Source: Candidatus Acidulodesulfobacterium acidiphilum
GTDB taxonomy: Bacteria > SZUA-79 > Acidulodesulfobacterales > Acidulodesulfobacteraceae
Direction: 5' to 3'
Assembly (NCBI GenBank): GCA_008534395.1
Contig: SHMQ01000011.1
Span: 1-64,000 of the forward strand
Length of the DNA: 64,000 bases
Shown here: one piece after another, positions 34,701-41,581 of the stretch
Numbering within the stretch: the stretch's first letter is position 1
Layout: the number at the start of each line of letters is the position of its first letter
Translations under genes and position numbers: made by a program
Notes under the pieces: generated by a model
The model's input: the letters and a program-made list of their open reading frames with translations, nothing else
What the model was told of the DNA's origin: nothing
The model's database searches: none

Positions 34701-35600
34701 TTAATCCGAGTCTGCGTTAGAAATAGCCAATTCCGCTGTTTTTTTGTTCAATATGCGGTATTCGCCGGAAGGCAGGTCGCCTATATATAGTCCGCCTATT
34801 CTTACTCTTTTAAGCATTAAAATCTTAAGATTAAAAAACTCCATAAGTCGTCTTATTTCACGGTTTTTTCCGTGGGTTAAATCGACCGACAGTATAAATT
34901 TATTTGGATTTTTTCTGACTATTTTTACGTCGTCAGGTTTTAAAAGACCTGCTTCTTCAAGTCTGACGCCTTTTTTTATCCTGTTGAAAAGGTCTGAGGT
35001 CAGTTCTCCTTTAACTTCTACTATATAGGTTTTTAATACGTCGAATTTTGGATGCGTTAATTTATACGAAAAATCGCCGTCGTTGGTAAGTATCAGCATG
35101 CCCTCACTCATAAAATCGAGTCTGCCCGCAGGAAATATATGCTTGTATTTCAAGGTTTCTTTTTTCACCAATTCCATGACTGTCTTAAAACCTTCTTCGG
35201 ATTTTACCGCGGTAATATATCCTTGGGGTTTGTTAAGCATGATATAAATTTTAGGTTCTTCTTTGAATTTAATTTTTTTACCGTCGACGGAAACTTCGTC
35301 GCCGGGTTTAACCGAAACGGCAAGTTTATTTATTTTTTTTCCGTTTATTACGACCCTTCCCTCTTCTATAATTTCGTCTGCATTTCTCCTTGAAACGCCG
35401 GTATGCATAGCTATAAATTTATTTAATCTTATTATTGCGCTTCCTGTGCCGCTTCCCGTGTCTGACGCAGGCAACGCCGATTTTACAGACTTTACAGATT
35501 TTACAGACTTTACAGGCTTTGATTTTTGCGGATTATTATTAGCAGATTTAGGAATCGCGGAATACTTGGAAGTCTTGTTTATTTTTTTTTCTTTTGTCAA
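34701..35600 (-). CDS. RsuA/RluB-family 23S/16S rRNA pseudouridine synthase
   Basis: 299 residues. A disordered Lys/Ser-rich N-terminal tail (1-55) is followed by an S4 RNA-binding domain ([19 protein letters not shown], then GRVVINGK) and a pseudouridine synthase domain with catalytic Asp in [11 protein letters not shown] and [10 protein letters not shown] near the end. It isomerises a specific rRNA uridine; RluB is the likeliest subfamily because this gene usually lies near scpA/scpB. Here it is inverted relative to scpA and is the last gene of the thiamin operon, overlapping thiG by 4 bases. Confidence 0.88.
35485..35520. repeat. four tandem copies of a 9-base repeat inside the pseudouridine synthase gene
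   Basis: ACAGACTTT, ACAGATTTT, ACAGACTTT and ACAGGCTTT lie in tandem. On the coding strand they encode the Lys-Ser-Val repeats in the basic tail before the S4 domain. The unit is a multiple of three, so copy-number change would keep the frame. Confidence 0.9.
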
Positions 35601-36382
35601 AATACTATTCCCTCCATTTGGGTTGAAGCCTGAGCATAAAGTTTCATGGGGATTCGTCCCGATAGGTACGCCTGTCTGCCTGCTTCTACAGCTTTTTTCA
35701 TAGCGTCTGCCATATTAACGGGATCTGCAGCTCCGGCTATCGCCGTGTTAATGAGAATTCCGTCAACGCCGAGCTCCATGGTTTTGCAAGCATCGGATGC
35801 CGTTCCTACTCCAGCATCGACTATTACGGGAACAGAGACCGTTTCTTTAATTATTTTTATGTTATACGGATTTTTTATGCCTAAACCTGAACCTATAGGA
35901 GAAGCAAGCGGCATAACTACAGGACATCCAATGTCTTCAAGTTTTTTTGCAAGGACAGGATCGTCCATCATATAAGGCATAACCGTAAATCCTTCTTTAA
36001 CTAAAATTTTTGCCGCCTTTAACAGTTCTTCATTGTCGGGATAAAGGGTTTTTTGATCGCCTATCACTTCCAATTTTACGAGGTCTGTTCTAAAAACGTC
36101 TAATTCTCTCGCAAGCAACAAAGTGTTTACCGCGTCTTCTGCCGTGTAGCATCCTGCGGTATTCGGTAAAAGAATATACTTATCAAGGTCAATATAAGAC
36201 AATAAATTTTCTTTGGCGTTAAAGTTGATTCTTCTTACGGCGACGGTTATTATTTCTGCTCCGGAAATATCCGCCGCCTCTTTCATTGTTTGAAAGTCGG
36301 GATATTTTCCTGTTCCGATAAGCAGTCTCGAGTCAAATTCGTATTTTCCTATTTTTAAAATATCGTCTTTTTTTTTCATCAT
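35597..36382 (-). CDS. thiG: thiazole synthase ThiG
   Basis: 261 residues. TIM-barrel enzyme joining 1-deoxyxylulose-5-phosphate, ThiS thiocarboxylate and 2-iminoacetate (dehydroglycine) into thiazole phosphate. Signatures: [13 protein letters not shown] near the N-terminus, the Schiff-base lysine K103 in [22 protein letters not shown] and [10 protein letters not shown]. The first of two adjacent ATGs is preferred because AGGAGG (36392-36397) lies nine bases upstream. It is separated from thiS by 77 bases that hold half of a palindromic element. Confidence 0.96.
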
Positions 36383-36459: not shown

Positions 36460-36663
36460 TTATCCTCCTGGAGCTATAGTTACCATGTCTATTTTATCGT
36501 TCTCTTTTAACGTGAATTCTGCGTAACAATTTTTGGAAATTATGGTTTTATTTACTGCAACGGCAGTGCTTTTTATATTAAGTTTGAGTTCGTCGATTAG
36601 TTTTTGAATCGTAATACCGTTTTGTTCGACTATATATTCGTTTCCGTTTAATTCTATTTTCAT
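36460..36663 (-). CDS. thiS: sulfur carrier protein ThiS
   Basis: 67 residues with the ubiquitin-like fold pattern (MKIELNGNEYIVEQNGITIQ at the N-terminus, AVAVNKTIISK in the middle) and the essential C-terminal Gly-Gly (VTIAPGG), which is adenylated by ThiF and thiocarboxylated. It delivers sulfur to ThiG. The start overlaps the stop of the CofH-like gene by 4 bases. No thiF lies nearby. Confidence 0.95.
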   Translation of the reverse strand: MKIELNGNEYIVEQNGITIQKLIDELKLNIKSTAVAVNKTIISKNCYAEFTLKENDKIDMVTIAPGG

Positions 36664-37823
36664 AAAATTTTATTATTATTTTTTTCGTATATATAATTAT
36701 ATACGGTATCCCTTCTGACCGGAGTTTTGCCGGCATGTTTTATTAAATTTATTATTTCTTTTTCCTCTAAAAATTCACCGAATTTACCTCCGGCGCTTTT
36801 AGTTATGTTTTCTTCCATTAAAGTCCCGCCGAAATCGTTAATGCCGCAATCAAGAGATTTTAAAGCCGCGGACACGCCTATTTTAGGCCAGCTTGTCTGA
36901 ATATTTTTAAAATTGTCCAAGAAAAGCCTTAAAATTGCATAAAATTTAAACACTCTTTTTTCGCCGATTATTTTCTTTCCGTTTATCGACTTTCCTAAAG
37001 ACGTTTTGGGAGAAATAAACGGCAGAGCTATAAATTCCGTAAATCCGCCGGTTTCATCCTGCAAACGTCTTATAATACTTAAATGATAAGCCAAATCTCC
37101 GCTTGATTCTATATGTCCGAAAAGCACCGTAGCAGACGTTTTAACGCCGAGTAAATGCGCCGTTTTTATTATTTTCATCCACTCTGCCGTATTTATCTTT
37201 TGCGGGCATATCTTTTTTCTTGTTTCTTCGGCTAAAATTTCAGCGGCAGTTCCGGGCATGGAATTAACGCCGCAATCAACTAATTTTTCGATAACCCGCG
37301 CATACGTCATACCCGTTGTTTCGGAAAGTTCGTAAATTTCCTGAGGCGAAAAAGCATGTATATGAAGTTTCGGAAAATTATTTCTTACCGTTTTAATTAA
37401 ATCAAAATAATAATCCGGATTTAATTTCAATTCCGGATTTATTCCGCCTGTTACGCATATTTCGTTAATACTGATGCTTTTTACGCCCTCCGAAATTTTC
37501 TCGATTATCTTATCGTAATCTAATAAAAAAGCGTCTTTAGAATTTTTTGTTCTTTTGTATCCGCAAAATTTGCAATTTAAACCGCAAATATTAGTAAAAT
37601 TAATATTTCTGTTAACGACGTAAGAAACTTTATCGGAATTAATTTTTTTATTTAGCGTATCTGCCGTAAAAATAATTTCCTCAATAGCTTTCTCTTCCTG
37701 CTCTTCAAGCAGTATAAGCAAATCATCGCTATCAAGTCTTTTGCCGGATAAAGCTTTTTGCAAAATATAATCCGGTTCGATTTTATGTGTTTTACTATTT
37801 TTATTATTCGACAAATTAAGCAT
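36660..37823 (-). CDS. CofH-family radical SAM enzyme in a thiamin operon, candidate 2-iminoacetate source
   Basis: 387 residues. The radical SAM cluster is C80-x3-C84-x2-C87 (CGLNCKFC). Family signatures match CofH (the tyrosine-cleaving subunit of F0 synthase): HIHAFSPQEI, NSMPGTAAEIL, RKKICPQKI, ETGGFTEFIALPF and TPVRRDTVY near the end. CofH splits tyrosine, adds the 4-hydroxybenzyl part to a ribityl-diaminouracil and releases 2-iminoacetate. ThiH also splits tyrosine to 2-iminoacetate, for ThiG. Here the gene is the first after a TPP riboswitch and overlaps thiS by 4 bases, where thiH would be expected. I infer it serves thiazole synthesis; true CofH or MqnE activity remains possible. Confidence 0.85.
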   Translation of the reverse strand: MLNLSNNKNSKTHKIEPDYILQKALSGKRLDSDDLLILLEEQEEKAIEEIIFTADTLNKKINSDKVSYVVNRNINFTNICGLNCKFCGYKRTKNSKDAFLLDYDKIIEKISEGVKSISINEICVTGGINPELKLNPDYYFDLIKTVRNNFPKLHIHAFSPQEIYELSETTGMTYARVIEKLVDCGVNSMPGTAAEILAEETRKKICPQKINTAEWMKIIKTAHLLGVKTSATVLFGHIESSGDLAYHLSIIRRLQDETGGFTEFIALPFISPKTSLGKSINGKKIIGEKRVFKFYAILRLFLDNFKNIQTSWPKIGVSAALKSLDCGINDFGGTLMEENITKSAGGKFGEFLEEKEIINLIKHAGKTPVRRDTVYNYIYEKNNNKIL

Positions 37824-37930
37824 TGTAATATATCTTCAATTTATTGCTTAAAGCTTAATGTATTATGCCTGAAGATAAAGCTTTTGGAAAGAAAAACTGC
37901 AGAAAAGAAAAAGTAAGCAGAAAGTCTATC

Positions 37931-38028
37931 TTCCCTACGACGGCATTATCCGTATCAGGTTCAAAGGGTTGCGTGCTTTAACGGCTACGCTCTCAGCCAT
38001 AGTTACAATAATACGGCACCCCTGATTT
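37931..38028 (-). promoter_or_regulatory. TPP riboswitch (THI element)
   Basis: Read on the - strand, the aptamer starts CAGGGGTGCCG, continues with GGCTGAGAGCG, and ends with ACCCTTTGAACCTGAT, then GGATAATGCCGTCGTAGGGAA. These are the conserved CTGAGA and ACCTGA segments and closing stem of the TPP aptamer. About 107 bases separate it from the start of the CofH-like gene. That stretch includes an AAAGCTT/AAGCTTT pairing that might serve as an expression platform, but I cannot say whether control is by termination or by hiding the start. Confidence 0.96.
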
Positions 38029-38085
38029 CATTGCATACCGACCTAAAACATATAAACTATCGATATATTATAAATTATACCATTA

Positions 38086-38856
38086 TTACTTTATAATTCC
38101 AACCAAAAAACTTTTGCTTTTATTGTTGTAAACCTTAACGCAAAAAACTTTTACCGTTAAAACGTCGTGTTTTGCCGTTAAAGGAATAAAATTATAGGAT
38201 AGAAAAACGGATTTTTTAATATGACCGAATGTTCCGGTTCTTTTATTGATAAACTTTTCCGCTCTTTTTGCCGGAATACTTAAAAAATTAAACTTTCCCG
38301 CATTTTTAAAAACTATCGTTAAACGCTTTGAAAAATGATATATATTTCCGTGTTCTATCTTTACGAAATCGATATTTCTGTCCGTTCTCATGCCATTCAT
38401 TATAACTTTCTTTTTATTGCGGTACGTTAAATAGAAACCGCCTTTATTCATTATATAGCCGCTAAGCGACGCTTTTACGTAATTTTTAAAATATTTTACT
38501 GAATCGACGTAGCTCATAAGTTTATTCAGCCTTGTCTTATCTTCAGAATATAGCTTATTCCATAAAAACACGTTATTCCTGTCATGCTTATATTTTGCCG
38601 GATTAACTATTTTTATATAGGTAACCACGTCGTTTTTACTTATAGCCTGTCCTTTCGCCTTTAAATAAAGCGCATAAATTATAGGATTTGTAGCATATAC
38701 TCCATTACAGTCCGTATTGCCGTTTCCGTCGGCAAACGACTTTCTGACCGACGCCGGATTAAAATTAAGAAATAAAATTGCCGATAACACTAAAATAAAT
38801 AAAAATGAGGTCTTAAAAATAAATATACCGTTTTTAATAATTTTATCTGCAATCAT
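38086..38856 (-). CDS. predicted exported or membrane-anchored protein of unknown function
   Basis: 256 residues. Not recognised. One N-terminal hydrophobic segment (about 13-32, IFKTSFLFILVLSAILFLNF) looks like a signal peptide or anchor, probably cleaved near SFADGNG. The mature part is basic, strand-rich and without cysteine pairs or a clear catalytic motif. It ends 57 bases upstream of the TPP aptamer and is on the same strand. It is monocistronic by appearance. Confidence 0.55.
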   Translation of the reverse strand: MIADKIIKNGIFIFKTSFLFILVLSAILFLNFNPASVRKSFADGNGNTDCNGVYATNPIIYALYLKAKGQAISKNDVVTYIKIVNPAKYKHDRNNVFLWNKLYSEDKTRLNKLMSYVDSVKYFKNYVKASLSGYIMNKGGFYLTYRNKKKVIMNGMRTDRNIDFVKIEHGNIYHFSKRLTIVFKNAGKFNFLSIPAKRAEKFINKRTGTFGHIKKSVFLSYNFIPLTAKHDVLTVKVFCVKVYNNKSKSFLVGIIK

Positions 38857-38992: not shown

Positions 38993-39775
38993 TTATTTAA
39001 ATCTCGCAAAATATTCGTCTATCTCAGGCCTTAATTCGATTCCGGCAATTTCAAAACAATTAAGCAGTTCTTCGTAAGTACCGTCGCCGCCAAGAAAATC
39101 CCAAAATTCTTTCCCTACCTTTAGTTCGCAATCTAAATCCAACATACCCTTTAGCGTCCATCTTTCGTAAGGTTTGGGTTCGTATGGATTATATGGTATT
39201 GCTATATACGAGTTTATATCGGCGTCTGGATTTTCAGCAAGATAAATTGCTGCCCATTCAAGCAAAGTATGTTTAAAATCTTTAAAACTGCTTATGTTCG
39301 GTTTGACTGTTTTTAAATCGAATAAATGTATTTTACCTTCTTTATCATTAATAAATAAATCTACTTTAACCGTCTTTAATTTATTCATTTTCCCGTCTTT
39401 GCAAACCGCTCTTATTCTTTCTATTTCTCGTGCTTTATTCGGAACGCTTTCTATTTCCGAAGCAAGACCGTTGATTATAGATTGAATTTCATTTTGGGCT
39501 TTTTCGCTTATAAAGTCTCCAACCGTATATTGTTTTTCGGCAAATCTAAAATTTGGATTAAGATTAGCAAGGGTTTTGGCGACCGGTTCATAAATAGATA
39601 TTCCGAAAGTCGTATTTAAAGAATGAATAAAAGAAAATAATGCCATTCTGTCTTTGCCAAGCAATAAATAATGAAACGGCATTTGTTTAGTTTCCGGCTT
39701 ATACGTTTTAAACTTCTTTTTTAAACTTTCTTTTATAATATTTTTTATTAAAGCGATTCTATCATTAGATTCCAA
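38993..39775 (-). CDS. TdeIII-family type II restriction endonuclease
   Basis: 260 residues. The whole sequence resembles the TdeIII endonuclease family, whose characterised members I recall as cutting GGNCC. The PD-(D/E)xK-type active site is visible as D139 (VKVDLF) and D153-L-K155 (HLFDLKT), with RWTLKGMLDL and VGKEFWDFLGG further on. It lies 48 bases downstream of the methyltransferase gene in the same orientation, the normal order for a protective system. The site specificity is inferred from the family only. Confidence 0.8.
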   Translation of the reverse strand: MESNDRIALIKNIIKESLKKKFKTYKPETKQMPFHYLLLGKDRMALFSFIHSLNTTFGISIYEPVAKTLANLNPNFRFAEKQYTVGDFISEKAQNEIQSIINGLASEIESVPNKAREIERIRAVCKDGKMNKLKTVKVDLFINDKEGKIHLFDLKTVKPNISSFKDFKHTLLEWAAIYLAENPDADINSYIAIPYNPYEPKPYERWTLKGMLDLDCELKVGKEFWDFLGGDGTYEELLNCFEIAGIELRPEIDEYFARFK

Positions 39776-39823
39776 TCTATTTAAAGTCCTCCCGAGGTTT
39801 AAAGCTTTGCTTATTTAAAATCC

Positions 39824-41581
39824 TTACTTATTTTGCTTTATATGAAATATCGTTTCTGAATAAATATTACTCCTATCTTTTTCTACCCTGTTGAGTACCG
39901 GACGGTTAAACCTATTGACTATTTTCATTCCGGATAACTTTACTATTTCAGGGTATATGTTATATTTATCGTTTGCCACTAAGAAAATATCGTAGTCTTC
40001 CTGCAAGTATTTTGCCGAATTAATTAAAACATCGGAAATATCTTTAATATAAGCTTCTCTGGCTTTTTTACCAGAACCTTTAGAAAGCGAGCCTATTTCC
40101 ATTTCGTCTTTTTTTTGAAAGCCGAACAGTTCGTAAGCGTAAGCATGTTGTTCATGATAATCTATCAATCCTACGTAAGGCGGACTTGAAAAGATTCCTC
40201 TTATTTTTTGATTTTTTAATATTTCATAAAAAAGAACATTTTTTTTATTTACTTCGGCATATATATCCAAATTTCTACTGTCACCGCACAAACATAATTG
40301 AAAAGTATTCGTTTTTAATTTTTGAAACTCTTCAAGCCTTTGTATCGTATCTTCGGAATAAGTTTTCCACCAGTCTTTTATAGTCAATAAAGGTTTGCAT
40401 ATTTTACCGTGTTTTTTGCAGTAATAAGGACTTACTATCGGCTCCTTTAACGTTGCTAAGTCGGCATGCGTCGTAGCCCTGCAAGAGCGCATAGTTCTGC
40501 TTAATATGGCCGCTAATACTTTTTTTACGTCCGAGTTTTCTATCTTTTGAATCTCGCCGAAAATAAAATCTATTTCTTCTTTTACCGGCCGCAAAAACCA
40601 TTTTCCGTTAAAACTGCTATAGTCGTACTTGTTAATTATCTCGACTTTATACTCTTTTACCAATCTTTCGTATTCTACTAAAAACTCTTTCTCTTTTTGC
40701 CCGCCGTATTCCTTTTCGTTTATACCTCCCTCTCTTACTTTTATTTTATATTCCGGTGAAGGGAAATATTTATTATTAAATTTTGATAAAGAACGATTTA
40801 AATTTTCGATAAAAAAATCGTTATTTTTCTTCTTTCGAAAATCCGTAAATTTATATGTTATATCTGAAATATATTTTCTGATTTCAGACAAAGGATGCGT
40901 TCCTATCTTTATATTACTTATTAAAGCATTAAAGGGCGAAATCTCGATTCCAACGGCATGCAGATTTAATTCGTTAGATTGAACCAAAGTAGTTCCGCTT
41001 CCGCAAAACGGGTCAAGAACTATATCTCCTTTTTTAAAATACGCTTCTTTTTTAAATTCGTCGATATGGATATCAAGAAAATATTCAACTAATTGAGGTA
41101 TAAACTTTCCTTTATAAGGATGTATCCTATGAACATGCTTAGTTCTTTCGGATTCTGTATAACGAGAAAAAGACAATAGCGGATTCGCAAAGTCATTCAA
41201 ACGCTGACCGTCGGAATTGCCTAATCTATTTTTATTATCGATGTTCTTAACAATATTCTCGTTGATTTCTGATCTGTTAATAATATATTCATCTTTAGTT
41301 ATATTTTGTAAATTTAAAGGATTTTTGGTTGTAAGTTTATATTCAAAATTATTTAAAGAATCATAATATTTTATTAATTCTAAAACATCTACCAATATAT
41401 TTCTTTTATCGCCATATTTTTTAATTCTGCCGTATTGCAATAGATATGAAATATTAGAAACGGAAACCGGCTTATTTAAATATGCAGAAGCAAAATTGCT
41501 TGTCTCAGACAAATTTAGAAACCTTTTTTCCGGCGCGGTAATATTATTTTCATTTAATAAGGTATTAACATTATCGGTCAT
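39824..41581 (-). CDS. site-specific DNA methyltransferase (N4-cytosine or N6-adenine type)
   Basis: 585 residues. The SAM-binding motif DPFCGSGTTL is near residue 192 and the catalytic SSPPY near 467 (GIFSSPPYVGLIDYHEQ), with a long target-recognition stretch between. That order (I, recognition, IV) is alpha-like, and SPPY is typical of N4-cytosine enzymes. HRIHPYKGKFIPQL just before motif I is common in this type. The first about 85 residues resemble a helix-turn-helix module (PVSVSNISYLLQYGRIKKYG) and could support autoregulation. It forms a restriction-modification pair with the next gene. Confidence 0.88.
   Translation of the reverse strand: MTDNVNTLLNENNITAPEKRFLNLSETSNFASAYLNKPVSVSNISYLLQYGRIKKYGDKRNILVDVLELIKYYDSLNNFEYKLTTKNPLNLQNITKDEYIINRSEINENIVKNIDNKNRLGNSDGQRLNDFANPLLSFSRYTESERTKHVHRIHPYKGKFIPQLVEYFLDIHIDEFKKEAYFKKGDIVLDPFCGSGTTLVQSNELNLHAVGIEISPFNALISNIKIGTHPLSEIRKYISDITYKFTDFRKKKNNDFFIENLNRSLSKFNNKYFPSPEYKIKVREGGINEKEYGGQKEKEFLVEYERLVKEYKVEIINKYDYSSFNGKWFLRPVKEEIDFIFGEIQKIENSDVKKVLAAILSRTMRSCRATTHADLATLKEPIVSPYYCKKHGKICKPLLTIKDWWKTYSEDTIQRLEEFQKLKTNTFQLCLCGDSRNLDIYAEVNKKNVLFYEILKNQKIRGIFSSPPYVGLIDYHEQHAYAYELFGFQKKDEMEIGSLSKGSGKKAREAYIKDISDVLINSAKYLQEDYDIFLVANDKYNIYPEIVKLSGMKIVNRFNRPVLNRVEKDRSNIYSETIFHIKQNK

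Follow-up and report, generated by a model that had tools for sequence, protein, structure and literature searches.

A CofH-family radical SAM protein in a TPP riboswitch-led thiS-thiG operon is a probable source of 2-iminoacetate in a lineage with no detected ThiH or ThiO

The thiamine operon of "Ca. Acidulodesulfobacterium acidiphilum" carries, ahead of thiS and thiG, a gene that probably encodes a radical SAM tyrosine lyase derived from CofH, which would replace ThiH and supply 2-iminoacetate to ThiG. That this enzyme feeds 2-iminoacetate to ThiG by one route or the other, as a plain lyase or through the full CofH reaction, appears highly likely. We infer its substrate, its product, its coupling to ThiG and the fate of the benzyl fragment from sequence. 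Cleavage of tyrosine by CofH produces two fragments, one of which is 2-iminoacetate. The other, a p-hydroxybenzyl radical, adds to ribityldiaminouracil (PMC8498797). ThiH makes the same cut in tyrosine to give dehydroglycine and p-cresol, and in aerobes the same product, 2-iminoacetate, is supplied to ThiG by ThiO (PMC9046217). An enzyme that stops after the first half of CofH's reaction would be the equivalent of ThiH.

The window, by which we mean the whole stretch of 64,000 nucleotides that was analyzed, belongs to a genome of 2.09 Mb in 70 contigs that is rated 100% complete. The operon lies on the minus strand of the window in the order TPP riboswitch, CofH-family gene, thiS, thiG, with the following features.

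37914-38033, minus strand: TPP riboswitch aptamer, which leads the operon (RF00059, 69.4 bits against a gathering score of 54.3, E 1.4e-11)
36660-37823, minus strand: CofH-family radical SAM gene, 387 aa, with matches to NF005609, TIGR03551, PF04055 and PF19288; proposed 2-iminoacetate synthase (tyrosine lyase)
36460-36663, minus strand: thiS, sulfur carrier protein (TIGR01683, 55.9 bits against 37.45; the open reading frame ends in GG)
35597-36382, minus strand: thiG, thiazole synthase (PF05690, 369 bits)

A preliminary description of this DNA had placed a TPP aptamer at 37931-38028, and the RF00059 match, above its gathering score, bears this out. The CofH-type gene that the same description reported under the riboswitch corresponds to an open reading frame scoring above the TIGR03551 and NF005609 cut-offs, and the arrangement it gave for the rest of the operon, thiS with a 4-base overlap and then thiG, agrees with the open reading frame coordinates and with the TIGR01683 and PF05690 matches: thiS overlaps the CofH-family gene by exactly 4 bases, and a gap of 77 bases separates thiS from thiG. 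Folding of the leader did not define an expression platform for the riboswitch (z −0.05). This thiG encodes the only full ThiG of its genome. The riboswitch is immediately preceded, on its own strand, by a gene for a DUF4852 protein of unknown function (38086-38856). A TdeIII-type restriction endonuclease gene and a DNA methylase gene (38993-41581) are also close by on the upstream side of the operon.

The preliminary description had noted that neither thiH nor thiO is in this operon, and the absence extends to whole genomes. Profile searches of the 30 genomes of the phylum in the set used, which represent one family and six genera and are referred to here as the lineage, recovered no ThiH above cut-off, the best matches being the CofH-family protein itself, and no ThiO above cut-off. 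A divergent ThiH or HydG that had escaped recognition was considered and rejected; the lineage's matches to the ThiH profile are only CofH, MqnE and MqnC proteins together with short or weak radical SAM matches. ThiO (glycine oxidase, TIGR02352) is a flavoprotein unrelated to the CofH-family protein, and partial matches to it (~70 bits, stronger than 1e-7) occurred in three lineage genomes only. A hidden ThiO was rejected as well, with nothing beyond these partial matches, of which the one that was read (L044) looks, judging from its sequence, like an L-2-hydroxyglutarate oxidase. The F420 pathway, which the preliminary description had singled out for a check, gave no CofG match over the cut-off among 19 lineage genomes tested, and none of the 30 encodes CofD, so that F420 is not made in the lineage. 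Control genomes gave the expected matches in the ThiH, ThiO, CofG and CofD searches. By these profile searches, both known sources of 2-iminoacetate, ThiH and ThiO, are absent from the lineage genomes.

In the window genome, the genes for ThiC and ThiE are neighbors, and a single adenylyltransferase of the ThiF/MoeB type is encoded. Among the thiazole-branch steps tested by sequence, which leave out ThiD, ThiL and the supply of deoxyxylulose phosphate, the source of 2-iminoacetate is the only one without a known enzyme. We propose that, in the manner of CofH and ThiH, a 5'-deoxyadenosyl radical would abstract a hydrogen atom from tyrosine's amino group and that the Calpha-Cbeta bond would then break to yield 2-iminoacetate (dehydroglycine) and a 4-hydroxybenzyl radical. 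ThiG would condense the 2-iminoacetate with deoxyxylulose phosphate and the thiocarboxylate of ThiS into the thiamine thiazole. Since the cell has no CofG, the benzyl fragment would most likely be discarded as p-cresol, as it is by ThiH. Control presumably runs through the riboswitch, with TPP repressing the operon.

Two further loci of this genome touch on the same pathway. The only ThiF/MoeB-family protein (L145 243-2786, G000:C10) is encoded beside a MoaD-like small carrier and TusA-like and cysteine-synthase-like proteins, which suggests that a single adenylyltransferase may act for more than one sulfur carrier. A second ThiC homologue (L147 1456-2769, G000:C19), which scores as ThiC, immediately follows a gene resembling, by eye, cobyrinate a,c-diamide synthase, and it may be an anaerobic 5-hydroxybenzimidazole synthase for the lower ligand of B12.

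The CofH-family protein shares a fold and a superfamily with CofH, the 5-amino-6-(D-ribitylamino)uracil--L-tyrosine 4-hydroxyphenyl transferase, and is 37-46% identical to its best outside relatives. Against the NCBIfam models it narrowly passes the CofH cut-offs of TIGR03551 (399 bits versus 374.1) and NF005609 (434 versus 426); the former discriminates poorly, as one MqnC (L036) passes it too at 376.7 bits, and three of the four lineage orthologues fall below the latter. Scores were below cut-off for the MqnC and MqnE equivalogs (358 versus 428 and 324 versus 435 bits, respectively), and by sequence the protein is not a ThiH, with 42.4 bits against a cut-off of 380 for the equivalog TIGR02351. 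In a tree of 80 proteins, the thi-operon proteins formed a clade of their own (100/100) whose stem measures 1.46 changes per site, and MqnC and MqnE grouped apart from it (100/97), which settles in the affirmative whether thi-operon members form their own clade, a question raised by the preliminary description. The branch setting CofH apart had support of 23/89, and the tree is compatible with the thi-operon clade being either nested within CofH or sister to it. The two CofH-superfamily paralogues of the genome are a genuine MqnC, encoded in the window near 61 kb, and an MqnE, in separate genes. An unrelated genome (G039) has two tandem MqnE-type genes about 12 bases apart, both over the MqnE cut-off (L127 345-2582). 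The original proposal, that a CofH-family enzyme has been recruited to feed ThiG, gains support from the absence of ThiH, ThiO, CofG and CofD and from the separate clade, with the activity itself being predicted.

Signature residues, defined as marks that separate CofH from MqnC and MqnE, were compared across 21 thi-clade sequences. Six of the seven CofH-only residues (C123, T192, A193, E263, K314 and M336) are kept and are invariant in all 21; these and the CX3CX2C cluster motif, at C80/C84/C87 in the window protein, are common to it and CofH, and the same first half-reaction on tyrosine is predicted. Among the retained residues, E263, K314 and T192 are candidate ligands of tyrosine. MqnE and MqnC, which belong to the futalosine pathway to menaquinone, also share the CofH superfamily, and the protein is without nearly all of the residues peculiar to them (0/6 MqnE-only and 1/11 MqnC-only marks in the thi clade). 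Eight of the 81 near-invariant CofH residues are replaced in the clade (R58, F89, A113, A119, T120, Q125, T230 and R366), asparagine standing in place of R58, and the clade-specific substitutions F89Y and Q125T adjoin the radical SAM core. This pattern suggests that the tyrosine-cleaving half of the enzyme has been retained and that change lies elsewhere, possibly in the site for the second substrate.

As of 2021, CofH had no known structure (PMC8498797), and searching the PDB did not find one. A Foldseek search with the AlphaFold model of the CofH-family protein (pLDDT 87) placed MqnE closest (6xi9/6xig, TM 0.82-0.84), followed by HydE, HydG and ThiH, the last of which (7pd1/7pd2, TM 0.68-0.72) is likewise a radical SAM barrel. 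An overall fold of the CofH/MqnE type, the retained CofH-only residues and the CofH cut-offs passed would all suit an enzyme that had kept the full CofH reaction, in which tyrosine and 5-amino-6-ribitylaminouracil would give 2-iminoacetate for ThiG and a benzyl-uracil adduct that would be either discarded or channeled into an unknown metabolite. We consider this unlikely: there is no CofG (19 genomes tested) or CofD (30 genomes) to use the adduct, the eight near-invariant residues are replaced clade-wide on a long stem, and consuming a second substrate would bring no gain. A smaller chance attaches to a bifunctional enzyme in which one cleavage of tyrosine would provide thiamine synthesis with 2-iminoacetate and at the same time benzylate a riboflavin precursor or another radical acceptor, giving a product from which an unknown metabolite begins; if this were true, thiamine and flavin metabolism would be tied together. 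Smaller still is the chance that the protein performs a different radical reaction, on a substrate other than tyrosine in thiamine or neighboring metabolism, with 2-iminoacetate coming from an unrecognized enzyme. The position of F89Y and Q125T next to the radical SAM core and the versatility of a family in which CofH, MqnC and MqnE differ in substrate could accommodate such a reaction; however, the residues that separate CofH, a tyrosine user, from MqnC and MqnE are retained, and the gap in the pathway is exactly 2-iminoacetate.

The association of the putative tyrosine lyase gene with thiG was followed across the lineage. ThiG is present in 27 of the 30 genomes, and the same 27 encode a protein scoring >500 bits against the CofH-family protein of the window. 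The three genomes that have neither are 85-86% complete, and their joint absence is weak evidence because linked genes go missing together from incomplete genomes. The CofH-family gene adjoins thiS and thiG in 26 of the 27 ThiG-bearing genomes, across five genera and in two gene orders (gene-thiS-thiG in four genera and thiS-thiG-gene in genus g2), a recurrence that chance does not explain. In the remaining genome (G020) the gene is retained 36 kb from thiG; there, a TPP riboswitch heads thiS-thiG, and none was found beside the distant CofH-family gene. A TPP riboswitch precedes all of the linked operons with a readable leader (22/22), although four of these riboswitches score slightly below the gathering threshold (50.8-54.0 bits). 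All of the association evidence comes from one lineage and represents one evolutionary event seen many times; among the best 80 loci listed, thiS and thiG adjoin the gene only in the lineage's four. Second thiS-thiG copies occur on short contigs of two genomes (L155 and L156; G004:C11 and G011:C34), with ThiS and ThiG proteins 98-100% identical to those of the window. Considered as cases of ThiG without a CofH partner, they were rejected as most likely stray fragments of a near-identical strain broken at the cofH end. In one relative (G023), a cobalamin riboswitch (L157 258-455, 90 bits) follows the thi operon at a distance of ~2.3 kb. NCBIfam naming would make the protein a CofH, but that it is a bystander, an ordinary CofH of F420 synthesis or an Mqn enzyme lying in the thi operon by chance, is very improbable, with MqnC and MqnE encoded by separate genes and the gene held under a TPP riboswitch in every readable linked operon through a change of gene order, and a bystander CofH was rejected on the absence of CofG (19 genomes tested) and CofD (30 genomes) together with the conserved operon membership.

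Compared with known systems, the protein is a member of the CofH superfamily that does not fit the CofG/F420 part of the definition of CofH. Unlike CofH, it has no CofG partner and no F420 pathway, it belongs to a clade of its own on a long stem, and it is part of a TPP-controlled thi operon. With ThiH it shares its place in an operon with thiS and thiG and its proposed product and role. Searches of open-access papers, a collection that most subscription journals fall outside, found none that brings CofH together with thiamine and ThiG, or that mentions it alongside 2-iminoacetate and ThiH. The new part is the role in the pathway, as the chemistry and the family were already known. Two suppliers of 2-iminoacetate for the thiazole moiety of vitamin B1, ThiH and ThiO, are known in ThiG-bearing bacteria, and a CofH-derived enzyme, if our proposal is true, would be a third that evolved independently. 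It would also be a case of a bisubstrate radical SAM enzyme turned into a lyase through loss of its second substrate, and an annotation as CofH need not imply the synthesis of F420.
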